Below, piece after piece: positions 32,146 through 36,869 of a stretch of 64,000 nt of DNA. A program made the translations under genes and the position numbers. Below the pieces are notes generated by a model. The model made no database searches. It was not told where the DNA came from and was given only the letters and a program-made list of their open reading frames with translations. Origin of the DNA: Catellatospora paridis. Lineage in GTDB: Bacteria; Actinomycetota; Actinomycetes; Mycobacteriales; Micromonosporaceae. Position 1 is the stretch's first letter, and each line of letters starts with the position of its first letter. The stretch is taken from contig NZ_ML769316.1 in NCBI RefSeq assembly GCF_009720365.1, positions 400,228-464,227 of the forward strand, given 5' to 3'.

Positions 32146-32347
32146 GTGACCGCCCCGCGCGGCGGCGATTCTCTGGCACAATCGCCGCCGTGAACGGGAT
32201 CGCATCCACGAGACACCAGGTCGCGGCAGCGCTCAGCGCCGGACCGGCCCAGACCTGTTCGATGCATGCCGTCCTGACCGCCGACGCCGTGCCGTCGATG
32301 CTGACGCGGTTGCGGGCAAGGCCCTGATGGCGGAGAGGAAACCGCCG

Positions 32348-33460
32348 ATGGCACTGCAGGCGCCGCTGTGGCGGGCCGTCACCGTCTTCCGGGTGGCGGC
32401 GCTGGTGTACGCCACCATCCTGATGCTGGCCGGCTTCCGTGACTTCACCCGGCCCTGGCTGGGCTGGGCGGTGCTCGCGGCGATGGTGGCCTGGACCGCT
32501 GTGACCGGCGTGCGCTACCAGGACCCCGCGGGCCGCAACCGCACCTGGCTTGCCGCCGACCTCGCCGTCACCCTGACCTGCCTGCTCGCATCCGCCCTGG
32601 TCGTGTCCGCCGACCGGCTGTCCTCCGGCGGGCCGACCTTGCCGATGGCCTGGGTGGCCGGAGCGGTTCTGGTGTGGGCGTTGCGCGGCGGCCGGCGGGC
32701 GGGCGGCATCGCGGCGCTGATCATCGGCGCCGCCGACCTGTTCCTGCGCGGCGAGATCACCTCCGCCACCGTGAACGGCACGGTGCTGCTGCTGCTTGCC
32801 GGCGGAGTCATGGGATACGTGTCACGGCTGACCGACGACGCCGAGACCCGACTGCAGCGGGCCGTGGAGCTGGAGGCGGCGACCCGCGAGCGCGAGCGGC
32901 TCGCCCGCGGCATCCACGACTCCGTCCTGCAGGTCCTCGCCCTGGTGCAGCGGCGCGGCACGGAGCTCGGCGGTGAGGCCGCGGAGCTGGGTCGGCTGGC
33001 CGGCGAGCAGGAGGCGGTGCTGCGCTCGCTGGTCGGGGTGCACGACACGGCGGCGGCCGCGGGCAGCACCGACCTTCGGCTGCTGCTGGGACGGTACGGC
33101 TCGCCACGGGTCACCGTGGCCACCCCCGCGACGCCGGTGCTGCTGCCGGCGGCGGTCGCGGCGGAGGTCGCCGCGGCCGCGGGCAGCGCGCTGGACAACG
33201 TGGCCGTCCACTGCGGTCCCGTGGTGCGGGCCTGGGTGCTGGTCGAACAGGAGCCGGACGCGGTCACCGTGTCGATCCGCGACGACGGGCCAGGCATCGC
33301 GCCGGGACGGCTGGCCGAGGCGTCCGCGTCGGGTCGGCTCGGGGTGGCGCAGTCGATCCAGGGCCGGATCCGCGACCTGGGCGGCACAGTCGCGATCACC
33401 AGCGCGCCAGGGCAGGGCACCGAGGTCGAGCTGCGGGTGCCGGCGCCCCGGATAGGCTGA
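32348..33460 (+). CDS. MacS-family sensor histidine kinase
   Basis: This kinase of about 370 residues has five or six membrane helices in the first 155 residues. A dimerisation helix carries phosphoacceptor His190 (RLARGIHDSVLQVLALVQRR), and a HATPase domain (SIRDDGPGIAPGRLAEASAS) follows. The MacS family belongs to the HisKA_3-like group of actinobacteria. I chose ATG 32348 because GGAGAGGA lies nine bases upstream; ATG 32327 would add seven residues. Its partner regulator starts five bases after its stop. The system faces the ketosynthase-oxidase genes in the same direction. Confidence 0.88.
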   Translation: MALQAPLWRAVTVFRVAALVYATILMLAGFRDFTRPWLGWAVLAAMVAWTAVTGVRYQDPAGRNRTWLAADLAVTLTCLLASALVVSADRLSSGGPTLPMAWVAGAVLVWALRGGRRAGGIAALIIGAADLFLRGEITSATVNGTVLLLLAGGVMGYVSRLTDDAETRLQRAVELEAATRERERLARGIHDSVLQVLALVQRRGTELGGEAAELGRLAGEQEAVLRSLVGVHDTAAAAGSTDLRLLLGRYGSPRVTVATPATPVLLPAAVAAEVAAAAGSALDNVAVHCGPVVRAWVLVEQEPDAVTVSIRDDGPGIAPGRLAEASASGRLGVAQSIQGRIRDLGGTVAITSAPGQGTEVELRVPAPRIG

Positions 33461-33465
33461 CCGTC

Positions 33466-34107
33466 GTGGTGGACGTGATGGTGGTCGACGACCATCCGAT
33501 GTGGCGGGACGGCGTGGCACGGGACCTCACCGACGCCGGATACACGGTGGTGGCGGCGGTCGGCGAGGGCGCGCAGGCGGTGCGGATCGGCCCGTCGGTG
33601 CGCCCCGACGTCGTCGTGCTCGACCTGCAGCTGCCGGACCTGTCCGGGGTGGAGGTGATCCGCGGCCTGGTCGCGGCCCTGCCGCAGGTGCGGGTGCTGG
33701 TGCTGTCGGCCAGCGGCGAGCAGCAGGACGTGCTCGACGCGGTCAAAGCCGGTGCGGCGGGTTACCTGTTGAAGTCGGCGGCGCGGGAGGAGTTCCTGGA
33801 CGCGGTGCGGCGTACGGCCGAGGGTGACGCGGTGTTCACGGCCGGGCTCGCGGGCCTGGTGCTGGGCGAATACCGGCGTCTCGCGGCCGCGCCGGGCGAC
33901 GGGCCGGACGCGCCGCGGCTGAGCGAGCGGGAGACCGAGGTGCTGCGGCTGGTCGCCAAGGGCCTCACCTACCGGCAGATCGCCGAGCGGCTCACCCTGT
34001 CGCACCGCACCGTGCAGAACCATGTGCAGAACACGCTGGGCAAGTTGCAGCTGCACAACCGGGTGGAGCTGGTCCGCTACGCGATCGAGCAGGGCCTGGA
34101 CGACTGA
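33466..34107 (+). CDS. NarL/LuxR-family response regulator
   Basis: This 213-residue regulator has a receiver domain with Asp8-Asp9 and phosphoacceptor Asp53 (VVVLDLQLPDLSG). The LuxR helix-turn-helix is LSERETEVLRLVAKGLTYRQ and TVQNHVQNTLGKLQLHNR. The start is GTG at 33466, reading MVDVMVVDDH. It is the cognate partner of the MacS kinase and ends 81 bp upstream of the ketosynthase-oxidase gene, so that operon is its most likely target. Confidence 0.92.
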   Translation: MVDVMVVDDHPMWRDGVARDLTDAGYTVVAAVGEGAQAVRIGPSVRPDVVVLDLQLPDLSGVEVIRGLVAALPQVRVLVLSASGEQQDVLDAVKAGAAGYLLKSAAREEFLDAVRRTAEGDAVFTAGLAGLVLGEYRRLAAAPGDGPDAPRLSERETEVLRLVAKGLTYRQIAERLTLSHRTVQNHVQNTLGKLQLHNRVELVRYAIEQGLDD

Positions 34108-34188: not shown

Positions 34189-36042
34189 ATGACGGCTTTC
34201 CCGAACGTGTACCTGACCGGATTCGGCGCCTACCTGCCCGGCGAGCCGCTGGACGCCGAGCAGATCGCCCTGCGGCTGGGCGCGGGCGCGCGCGGCGCCG
34301 GGCTGCGGGCGCGGGTGCTGGCCGCCAACGGCATCCGGACCCGGCACTACGCGCTCGACGAGCACGGCGCGGTCACCATGCTCAACGAGGAGCTGGCCGC
34401 CGCGGCGGTGCAGGAGGCGTTGAAGGACCGGGACCTGCCGCTGGAGTCGGTGGGCATGCTGGCCGCCGGGACCACCCAGGGCGACCTGCTGGTGCCGGGC
34501 TTCGGTTCGATGGTGCACGGCCGGCTGGGCGGGCCGCCGATGGAGGTGCTGTCCGCGGGCGGGGTGTGCGCGTCGAGCATGGCCGCGCTGTCGGCCGCGG
34601 CGCGGGCGGTGCGGCTCGGCGAGCACGACGCGGCCGTGGTGGTCGGGTCGGAGCTGGTCAGCCGCTCGCTGCGGCAGAGCCGGTACGAGGGCGAGCGGTC
34701 GGGTTTCGACGCGGAGTTCCTGCGCTGGACGCTGTCGGACGGGGCGGGTGCGGTGGTGCTGGAGCCGCGACCACGCCCGGACGGGCTGAGCCTGCGGCTG
34801 GACTGGACGCACCTGGTGTCGTATGCCGGGGAGCGTCCGGTGTGCATGTCGGCGGGCGGCGAACCGGTCGCCGGGAAAACGTGGCTGGACGGCCCGGATG
34901 TGGCAAGCGCCGAGCGGGCGGGGCTGGTGCGGCTGCGCCAGGACGTGAAGTCGCTGCCCGCGCTGTTCCGGCTGGGACTGCGTGAGTACATGGGGCTGGT
35001 GCGGGCGGGCAGGTTCACGCCCGACAGCATCGATCATGTGCTGTGCCACTACAGCGCCGAGCACTTCCGGGGCGAGATCTTCGGGCTGCTGCGCGAGGCG
35101 GACCTGATGATCGACGAGCGGCGCTGGTTCACGAACCTGCACACGCGCGGCAACACCGGGGCCGCCAGCATCTTCGTGATGCTGGAGGAGGCGTGGCGGG
35201 CTGGCCGGTTCAGCCCCGGCGAGCGCATCCTGCTGATCGTGCCGGAGTCGGGCCGCTACTCGCTAGCGTTCGCCCAGCTGACCTGCGTGGCCGCCTCGGC
35301 GCGGGCGGTCTCGGCGGTCGCGGGCGCGGCGGACCACCCCGCTGGGACGCCGTCGCCGCTGGTGGCCCAGGACGGTGACGGTGAGGTGGTGCGGTGGACG
35401 GTGCTGGAGCTGGCCCGGGTGTGGGAGCAGTTCGAGCGGCAGGTGCGGGCGACCCCGCTGGTCCGGCGGATCGACACCGGCACGGCGACGCTCGACGACT
35501 ACCGGCGGCTACTGGTGCACCTGCGCCAGCAGGTCGTCGAAGGCGGGCGCTGGATCAGCCGCGCGGCGTCGAACTTCTCCGTCGAGATGTTCGCGCTGCG
35601 CAGCGCGGCGATCACACACGCGGCCGAGGAGCACCGCGACTACCAGCTGCTCGAACGTGACTTCTGCGCGGTCGGCGGCACCATCGAGGAGATCCGGGGG
35701 GCGCGCAAGAACATCGGCTCGGAGGCGCTGTCGGCGTACGTGTTCCACCAGGCGAGCCAGCCTGACCCGGTGGACCTGCTGGGCGCGATGTTCGTCATCG
35801 AAGGGCTCGGCGCGGGCCTGGTGCTGGGCTGGGCCCGCGCGCTGCGCGAGCAGCTGAACCTGCGCGAGGACCAGGTGAGCTTCCTCGGCTACCACGGCGA
35901 GGCCGACGACGCGCACTTCGCCGAACTCGCGCACCTGCTGCGCGAGGCGGTCCCGGACCGGGCGGCCGCGGCCCGGGTGGTGCGCACGGCCGAGGTCGTC
36001 GCCCGGCTGTACGCGATGCAGCTCGCGGAGGTCGACGCGTGA
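34189..36042 (+). CDS. Ketosynthase III (KASIII) fused to haem-oxygenase-like diiron oxidase (HDO)
   Basis: This is a 617-residue two-domain protein. Residues 1-370 are a FabH/KASIII-type thiolase-fold condensing enzyme with the full triad: Cys127 (GGVCASSMAA), His287 (LCHYSAEH) and Asn322 (GNTGAAS). Residues 400-617 are a helical haem-oxygenase-like domain. Glu538, His569, Asp573 and His576 have the spacing of the diiron ligands in CADD-type HDO enzymes, and Glu480, Glu481 and His482 are further ligand candidates. KASIII joins or transfers acyl groups; HDO enzymes oxidise or cleave small substrates, including fatty acids. A fatty-acyl or polyketide-derived small product is inferred. GGAGG lies only one base before the ATG, an unusual spacing. 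Confidence 0.85.
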   Translation: MTAFPNVYLTGFGAYLPGEPLDAEQIALRLGAGARGAGLRARVLAANGIRTRHYALDEHGAVTMLNEELAAAAVQEALKDRDLPLESVGMLAAGTTQGDLLVPGFGSMVHGRLGGPPMEVLSAGGVCASSMAALSAAARAVRLGEHDAAVVVGSELVSRSLRQSRYEGERSGFDAEFLRWTLSDGAGAVVLEPRPRPDGLSLRLDWTHLVSYAGERPVCMSAGGEPVAGKTWLDGPDVASAERAGLVRLRQDVKSLPALFRLGLREYMGLVRAGRFTPDSIDHVLCHYSAEHFRGEIFGLLREADLMIDERRWFTNLHTRGNTGAASIFVMLEEAWRAGRFSPGERILLIVPESGRYSLAFAQLTCVAASARAVSAVAGAADHPAGTPSPLVAQDGDGEVVRWTVLELARVWEQFERQVRATPLVRRIDTGTATLDDYRRLLVHLRQQVVEGGRWISRAASNFSVEMFALRSAAITHAAEEHRDYQLLERDFCAVGGTIEEIRGARKNIGSEALSAYVFHQASQPDPVDLLGAMFVIEGLGAGLVLGWARALREQLNLREDQVSFLGYHGEADDAHFAELAHLLREAVPDRAAAARVVRTAEVVARLYAMQLAEVDA

Positions 36043-36869
36043 AAGGCCCCACCGTGTGGACGGCGATCATGGCCGACCCGACCGTGCCCATCGACCGGGA
36101 CGTGCTGGCGATGGTCGTGGCCGACCAGCGGCAGTGGACCCGCCGCTGGCTGTATCCGCCCGCGCGAGTCCTGTCCCGGGTCGCCGTGTGGCTGATCCGG
36201 GTGGTCAAGGCACTGCTGCCATGGACGTTCTCGGCGCATACCACGATGGACCGGCTGTGCGTGTGGTTCCTGCGCCGGTTCGTCTCGCCGCGGGCCGGTG
36301 AGCTGCTGATCCGGCACTTCCTCATCGAGACGAACCTGCTGGCGTTCATCGCCCGCAACAGCGGCGTGGCCGGGGTGACCGAGCCGACCCTGCGGCCCAC
36401 CACGCTCGCCGGGCTCGGGGACCGGGCGGTGATCGAGCACGACGTCAGCGTGTACGACGTGCTCATCGCCCTGGGTGCGGGGCGCCGGGGGCCCCGCGGG
36501 CCGCTGGACTTCTCGATGCTGGCGCTGCCGCCGGTCGACCCCTCGCGGGGGCTGCGGCGGCTGCTGCGCCTGGACATCCAGACCGCGCTGTGCCTGATGA
36601 ACATCCCGTTCGCGCTGTGTCTGACCCCGCAGGAGTACCGGCGCGCGGTGCACTCGATGCGGCTGGACGAGTCGCTGCTGACGGTGCTGGCGGAGCTGAC
36701 CGGGGACGACACGTTCCTGCGCTGGCGGCCGGGCGGGGTGGTGGTGCGGGTGGACAGCGGCCTGGACGTGCCGCGCGCGGTGTACGAGCACGCGGTGATC
36801 CATGAGTACGCCCACGCCCGGCTCGTGAAACTGGCGGCAGGCGACCCGGCCGCACACTCCCGTGCCTGA
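36039..36869 (+). CDS. Unknown protein coupled to the KASIII-HDO gene
   Basis: This 276-residue protein starts at GTG 36039, overlapping the upstream stop as GTGA, so it is made together with the fusion enzyme. It is largely helical, with a possible amphipathic or membrane-associated stretch (LSRVAVWLIRVVKALLPWTF). Possible metal-binding pieces are IRHFLIETNLLAFIARNS, AVIEHDVSVYD and the C-terminal YEHAVIHEYAHARLV, which is rich in His and Glu. I do not recognise the family. Its role may be substrate or membrane delivery, or a further oxidative step; this is inference from coupling only. Confidence 0.75.
   Translation: MKGPTVWTAIMADPTVPIDRDVLAMVVADQRQWTRRWLYPPARVLSRVAVWLIRVVKALLPWTFSAHTTMDRLCVWFLRRFVSPRAGELLIRHFLIETNLLAFIARNSGVAGVTEPTLRPTTLAGLGDRAVIEHDVSVYDVLIALGAGRRGPRGPLDFSMLALPPVDPSRGLRRLLRLDIQTALCLMNIPFALCLTPQEYRRAVHSMRLDESLLTVLAELTGDDTFLRWRPGGVVVRVDSGLDVPRAVYEHAVIHEYAHARLVKLAAGDPAAHSRA

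Follow-up and report, generated by a model that had tools for sequence, protein, structure and literature searches.

Which reaction would bring a condensing enzyme and a haem-oxygenase-like oxidase together in one chain? The question is raised by a gene in a 64,000-nucleotide stretch of Catellatospora paridis DNA (contig NZ_ML769316.1, positions 400,228 to 464,227; hereafter the window), which encodes a ketosynthase III continuous with a haem-oxygenase-like domain and is overlapped at its end by a gene of the DUF6999 family. These three parts form a module that recurs across phyla, and its ketosynthase resembles StlD and DarB. At a probability of roughly 0.4, we favour an explanation in which the fused domain, a predicted diiron oxidase, uses O2 to oxidise the product of a DarB-like condensation; it would replace a separate DarA protein and yield a modified lipid. 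The module in the window consists of the following features.

34189..36042, + strand: fused gene, ketosynthase III and haem-oxygenase-like domain (617 residues, ATG start)
34204..35289, + strand: StlD/DarB-like ketosynthase domain (residues ~6–367; Cys127, His287, Asn322)
Residues ~368–398: linker of the fused chain, low-confidence in the structure model
35383..36027, + strand: haem-oxygenase-like domain, PF14518 (residues ~399–613)
36039..36869, + strand: DUF6999 (PF22523) partner (276 residues, GTG start, 4-base overlap, GTGA, with the fused gene)

The fused chain and its DUF6999 partner

Both halves of the chain score above their Pfam cut-offs, ACP_syn_III_C with 43.8 bits and Haem_oxygenas_2 (PF14518) with 36.1 bits (cut-off 28.9, residues 485–608), and the chain aligns over its full length with fused homologues from several phyla. 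The single polypeptide described in a first-pass annotation of the window is thereby upheld, and both enzymes appear complete by sequence; the triad named in that annotation, Cys127, His287 and Asn322, is invariant in 71 of 71 ketosynthases, the window's included. A random open reading frame or frame artefact is ruled out by these invariant residues and because homologues in several phyla align end to end. The structure model of the full chain has a mean pLDDT (predicted local distance difference test score) of 87.6 and a pTM (predicted template modelling score) of 0.61; it is confident inside both domains, falls below a pLDDT of 50 in the linker (residues 371–385) and is all-helical with high confidence in the oxidase region (399–613). 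A fold search with this model returned only ketosynthases among the 50 matches listed. The sole clear PDB homologue of the oxidase domain by sequence is 3dde (E = 6e-11), which has a haem-oxygenase-like fold.

Most members of the haem-oxygenase-like diiron oxidase (HDO) superfamily have a ligand set of three histidines and three carboxylates, and variants with four carboxylates or a mononuclear site are also named, according to the accessible text of a review (PMC13108848). This pattern extends over helices 1–3, and five of its positions are kept in all 70 oxidase domains compared; the register of the helix-1 histidine is held by Asp484. Glu538, His569, Asp573 and His576, to which the first-pass annotation had assigned CADD-type diiron spacing, are invariant in 70 of 70 domains, so that its assignment stands for four of the six positions, with unusual ligands in helix 1. 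There, His477, Glu481 and Asp484 are likewise invariant (70 of 70) and His482 is present in 61; the Glu-x2-His pair of UndA type is absent, and Glu481-x2-Asp484 occupies all 70 domains. In the alignment to 3dde, Glu481 is opposite a glutamate and Asp484 opposite a histidine. The spacing to the helix-2 glutamate would presumably fit both CADD and UndA if Asp484 takes the position of their histidine.

The predicted ligands are therefore Glu481, Asp484 (or His477), Glu538, His569, Asp573 and His576, a rearranged set of two histidines and four carboxylates, or of three and four if His477 binds; the invariant His477, upstream of the usual histidine position, may substitute for it. Among PF14518 proteins of related genomes, four that could be aligned (L143, L146, L147, L149) have a glutamate at position 481 and a histidine ten residues on, a place held in the module domains by Asp or Asn and by His in 6 of 70; four others (L152, L159, L165, L167) have a histidine near position 477 followed by gaps. 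The module thus shares Glu538, the H569-x3-D573-x2-H576 motif and an above-cut-off PF14518 score with the HDO superfamily (UndA, CADD, SznF, AetD, PolF, MboA), from which it differs in its helix-1 residues and in having a ketosynthase as partner. The UndA- or CADD-like reading first proposed for the oxidase presupposes a ligand set from which the module departs at helix 1.

The gene overlapping the fused gene by GTGA, as annotated, had been assigned to no recognised family. It scores 275.6 bits against DUF6999 (Pfam gathering cut-off 27), a named family, although one without known function, and 47 of 47 aligned members match the same model. Asp13, Arg92, His93, Asn107, His134, Asp135, Asp179, Asp210, His251 and Glu256 are invariant; in a set of 68 rows, one of them a fragment, Arg92-His93, His134-Asp135, Asp210, His251 and Glu256 are each kept in 67 or 68. 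Because of these latter residues, we suggest that DUF6999 is an enzyme, possibly metal-dependent; its invariant His, Asp and Glu residues may mark a second metal site. The structure model is mostly helical (pLDDT 85.5, pTM 0.85). A fold search matched it neither to a PDB entry (best E = 0.26) nor to an entry of a viral library (best E = 0.19). The sequence has no PDB match (best E = 1.1), and a second Pfam family appears only in single weak matches (best E = 0.043). A likeness of the His…His-Asp pattern to HD-domain oxygenases was considered and found no support from any search.

Distribution of the module

The module occurs in Actinomycetota, Cyanobacteriota, Bacteroidota, Acidobacteriota, Myxococcota and Pseudomonadota. 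Six short peptides, used as search patterns on about 85,000 species genomes, located at least 57 loci, of which 42 have both domains in one open frame, nine have them in two neighbouring genes (L057, L062–L068, L070) and six have the ketosynthase alone; several of the genomes are incomplete metagenome-assembled genomes, and the group names of some loci are those of the phylum sample of origin. Three alignments were drawn up: A1, with 39 sequences (the window and 38 of the 42 fused loci, leaving aside L023, L026, L029, L032 and all split loci); A2, with 47 sequences (the window and 46 of the 48 DUF6999 loci, leaving aside L023 and L078); and A3, with 37. The neighbourhood search for the fusion and its partner, which the first-pass annotation had put forward as a check, finds DUF6999 at 48 of the 51 loci having an oxidase, in several phyla. 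The contigs of L053 and L056 end inside the gene preceding the place of DUF6999, and in L040, a cyanobacterial metagenome-assembled genome, DUF6999 is on another small contig and not beside the fusion. In Cyclobacterium qasimii, DUF6999 is spread over two overlapping frames (L078:9851-10746), a frameshift or an assembly error.

A genome-wide test covering 24 of the 57 loci placed DUF6999 in 18 of 18 oxidase genomes and in none of six ketosynthase-only genomes, which likewise lack this type of oxidase (0 of 6). Searching in the reverse direction, from DUF6999, recovered the ketosynthase and oxidase within about 2 kb of 25 of 30 matches over four phyla: 3 of 3 in Actinomycetota (296 genomes), 9 of 9 in Pseudomonadota (398 genomes), 2 of 3 in Bacteroidota (247 genomes), where the third, weak match (G1030) has just a ketosynthase beside it, and 11 of 15 in Myxococcota (146 genomes), where the other four are two DUF6999 fragments (G1103, G1179), G1087 and G1147. 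In a control set of 14 well-known genomes, Caulobacter vibrioides is the sole one with DUF6999 and also one of the two with PF14518. These counts support the assignment of DUF6999 to one unit with the ketosynthase and oxidase. Nine of ten other Catellatospora genomes searched match both parts of the fused protein, and 19 of the 101 genomes of a set of relatives (that of the window included) match at E ≤ 1e-40; the module is native to the genus.

Halomonas, Pseudoalteromonas, other gammaproteobacterial-type loci and three Myxococcota loci encode the ketosynthase and the oxidase in two adjoining genes, as do L109, L111 and L112; every other examined locus with both domains encodes one chain. In the ketosynthase tree, which omits L032 (ketosynthase partly missing) and labels L138 'split' although no oxidase lies nearby, 13 Halomonas-type rows form one clade (support 100/100) beside the fused clades, and eight of nine oxidase-less rows form another (100/99); long-branch warnings attach to this tree. 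With the pair adjacent but unfused in one clade and fused in most others, the linkage is taken to reflect functional coupling. The three proteins have correlated pairwise distances (r = 0.87, 0.82 and 0.71; 67 sequences with related rows among them, so the values are descriptive only), as expected for a unit inherited together.

The ketosynthase and neighbouring genes

The window ketosynthase is StlD/DarB-like, and not FabH- or OleA-like, as judged from sequence and predicted fold. StlD is its closest PDB sequence match (E = 2e-73), and among the 50 best matches listed for the full-chain model, StlD chains take ranks 1–6 at 38–39% identity, followed by OleA, FabH and other ketosynthase III chains at 19–24%. 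A FabH- or OleA-type enzyme was rejected as the best model on these grounds: OleA, the head-to-head Claisen ketosynthase of olefin synthesis, shares the ketosynthase III fold, but its identity to the module ketosynthase is 20–22%. Across 70 module ketosynthases, 46 columns deviate in no more than one sequence, and 36 of these are identical in all eight oxidase-less DarB-type sequences. The likeness to the StlD/DarB group, which serves dialkylresorcinol, stilbene and flexirubin pathways and makes cyclohexanediones and resorcinols, therefore extends over the Cys-His-Asn triad, these columns and the nearest solved structure; one difference is in the company kept, an HDO-type oxidase and DUF6999 in place of a DarA-like gene.

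The eight oxidase-less DarB-type sequences all exceed the curated StlD/DarB cut-off (490–557 bits). A gene of about 305 residues is located just upstream of the lone ketosynthase in five of six Desulfobacterota-type loci and beside the ketosynthase in three Streptomyces plasmids. Genome-wide, it is present in five of six Desulfobacterota-type genomes versus 1 of 27 module genomes, and there on another contig; the module and the DarA-like gene are thus nearly mutually exclusive. In Azoarcus, darA adjoins darB, as stated in the accessible part of PMC3949708. The ~305-residue gene is probably DarA, to judge from its place and size only. One Streptomyces plasmid cluster (L142:7718-15364) contains an acyl carrier protein, an StlD-like ketosynthase, a DarA-like gene, a monooxygenase, FabF, a P450 and a second acyl carrier protein, and resembles a resorcinol-type polyketide cluster, as yet uncharacterised.

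Outside the actinobacterial and cyanobacterial loci, a profile search over 70 loci (L175–L180 lie outside this count) placed a membrane-oxidase candidate next to the module in 41 of 47 loci, and a relative of fatty-acid hydroxylases or desaturases in 30 of these 47. All 49 membrane-oxidase-type genes in the 1.12 million bases examined are within 952 bases of module core genes, in a search biased towards such neighbours because its profiles were seeded from genes beside the module. Pfam checks of the membrane neighbours cover six loci (L050, L055, L058, L103, L108, L137). The families differ by lineage. In Bacteroidota, 15 of 16 loci have a fatty-acid hydroxylase relative ahead of the fusion; two of three Acidobacteriota and four of six Myxococcaceae-like loci have a desaturase relative next to it; and one clade of the Pseudomonadota sample has a desaturase relative in six of six loci, with a hydroxylase relative in five of them. 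Different oxidase families in one place point to modification of the tail of a lipid-like product.

In the split clade, a desaturase relative is present in two loci, and a His-rich protein of about 190 residues (for example, L141:6436-6993) adjoins the ketosynthase in 13 of 13, with six histidines and several Asp/Glu residues invariant throughout. No Pfam match above cut-off was found for two members of this protein group and no NCBIfam match for a third. By eye it is apparently a membrane protein; that it acts as an oxidase is a guess, and its invariant residues are possibly those of a new metalloenzyme family.

Further genes are seen at one or a few loci. Directly after DUF6999, a diacylglycerol kinase gene (L108:7171-7557, Pseudomonadota sample) hints at lipid metabolism, and a gene with MFS, acyltransferase and AMP-binding domains (L109:4697-8098), found in one genome, encodes an acyl-activating, lipid-type enzyme. 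A cupin-like (JmjC-type) gene is upstream of the module in Corallococcus (L055:4802-5680), with similar genes, by eye, in L053 and L056. No acyl carrier protein or adenylation gene is among ten proteins scanned around the fused gene in the window, as the first-pass annotation had noted. Two regulatory genes precede the fused gene on the same strand.

32327..33460, + strand: DUF5931 sensor histidine kinase, upstream of the fused gene
33466..34107, + strand: LuxR-type response regulator, ending 81 bases before the fused gene

From its place, the kinase is possibly the module's regulator in Catellatospora. Homologues of the kinase and of the regulator each occur in 10 of the 57 loci (six in Catellatospora, four in other actinobacteria), and in L034 and L037, actinobacterial loci outside Catellatospora, such genes sit downstream of the module.

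A proposed pathway and its alternatives

In the pathway that we favour, the DarB-like ketosynthase would join two fatty-acid-derived acyl units to a 1,3-diketone, probably a cyclohexane-1,3-dione, which the fused diiron domain would oxidise with O2 by aromatising desaturation or by hydroxylation, taking over the task of the separate DarA-type partner of dialkylresorcinol pathways. DUF6999, nearly always present, would be a third enzyme acting on the same intermediate, and in many Gram-negative lineages the membrane oxidases would then desaturate or hydroxylate the alkyl tail, giving a modified (dialkyl)resorcinol- or hydroxyquinone-type lipid. Aromatisation requires a desaturation, which is among the HDO reactions on record in the accessible text of PMC13108848.

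Several observations weigh against this pathway. StlD/DarB (NF005293) is the top NCBIfam family of the window ketosynthase, at 323.2 bits against a cut-off of 450, so the enzyme is related to the family and is not filed as a member; three of the four module ketosynthases scored fall under that cut-off (L055 at 389.9 and L064 at 364.6 bits, with L041 above it at 455.8). All eight oxidase-less DarB types have other residues in place of Phe105 and Arg159, neither of which varies within the module. The ~305-residue neighbour matches no curated model and no PDB chain. Two Bacteroidales plasmids with DarB-type ketosynthases have neither this gene nor an oxidase nearby, and a DarA-type partner is therefore not a strict mark of the family. 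The ninth oxidase-less ketosynthase, from the Streptomyces plasmid L142, scores 382 bits, below the cut-off, has a DarA-like neighbour with no oxidase seen, and branches among the module rows on a long branch (modest support, 84/80). No putative membrane oxidase was counted at any of the 21 actinobacterial or the 2 cyanobacterial loci. In the Myxococcota sample, G1087 (L138:7389-9598) has ketosynthase and DUF6999 with no oxidase found in the genome, and G1147 has an intact DUF6999 far from its oxidase, the latter in a 715-residue open frame.

Condensation might also stop short of ring closure, with the oxidase hydroxylating or desaturating an open-chain acyl lipid destined for the membrane. 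The adjacent acyl desaturase and hydroxylase relatives are consistent with such a product, as are the kinase of L108 and the acyltransferase/acyl-activating fusion of L109, each of which comes from a single locus; the strong retention of DarB-type residues and the exclusion of the DarA-like gene point instead to DarB-like chemistry, and we regard the open-chain product as somewhat unlikely. Less probable still is that the ketosynthase makes a β-keto or fatty acid that the oxidase cleaves or decarboxylates to an alkene, a ketone or a shortened chain. Here the Glu481-x2-Asp484 pair sits at the Glu-x2-His of 3dde, which we take to be the UndA helix-1 ligand spacing, and relatives of fatty-acid oxidases adjoin the module; UndA itself is an HDO that converts fatty acids to 1-alkenes (PMC13108848, accessible text). 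Asp nonetheless holds the helix-1 histidine position in 70 of 70 domains, there is no sign of free-acid release, and the nearest relative of the ketosynthase is StlD, not OleA or FabH, a kinship that speaks for oxidation acting on a condensed product, possibly a cyclic one, rather than for simple cleavage of a fatty acid. The first-pass proposal of a condensing enzyme physically linked to an oxidase is accordingly supported in its functional coupling, through the fused and split linkage, and disfavoured in its cleavage chemistry.

A mainly protective oxidase, handling peroxide or iron as considered for DtpC of Acinetobacter baumannii, is highly improbable. DtpC is a desiccation factor whose HDO domain has no assigned chemistry, and survival of desiccation depends on its predicted HDO ligands, but its gene is co-transcribed with a catalase gene and not paired with a ketosynthase, a word absent from the accessible text of its paper (PMC13232832). 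The module oxidase is linked to a condensing enzyme and, in many loci, also to relatives of lipid oxidases.

Both kinds of enzyme are already known, as is the automatic annotation of the parts. No description of the ketosynthase–HDO pairing, of DUF6999 or of the ligand variant was found in the open-access literature searched, subscription papers being mostly outside the search, and the words 'ketosynthase', 'fused' and 'fusion' do not occur in the accessible text of the HDO review (PMC13108848). The most far-reaching form of the favoured pathway, a phylum-spanning route in which a rearranged-ligand HDO replaced the DarA aromatase, DUF6999 is a new enzyme family and the products are new oxidised alkyl-ring membrane lipids, is rather doubtful.

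If the favoured pathway is true, it would unite an oxidase subfamily and a Pfam family, both of them orphans, with a condensing enzyme in one testable pathway, present in culturable bacteria such as Halomonas, Pseudoalteromonas, Zobellia and Corallococcus. Functions have been validated for only about a dozen members of the HDO superfamily, according to the accessible text of PMC13108848; a member fused with a condensing enzyme and an uncommon set of ligands would be added, and these bacteria would possess an oxygen-dependent route, so far undescribed, to an unusual lipid-like molecule.

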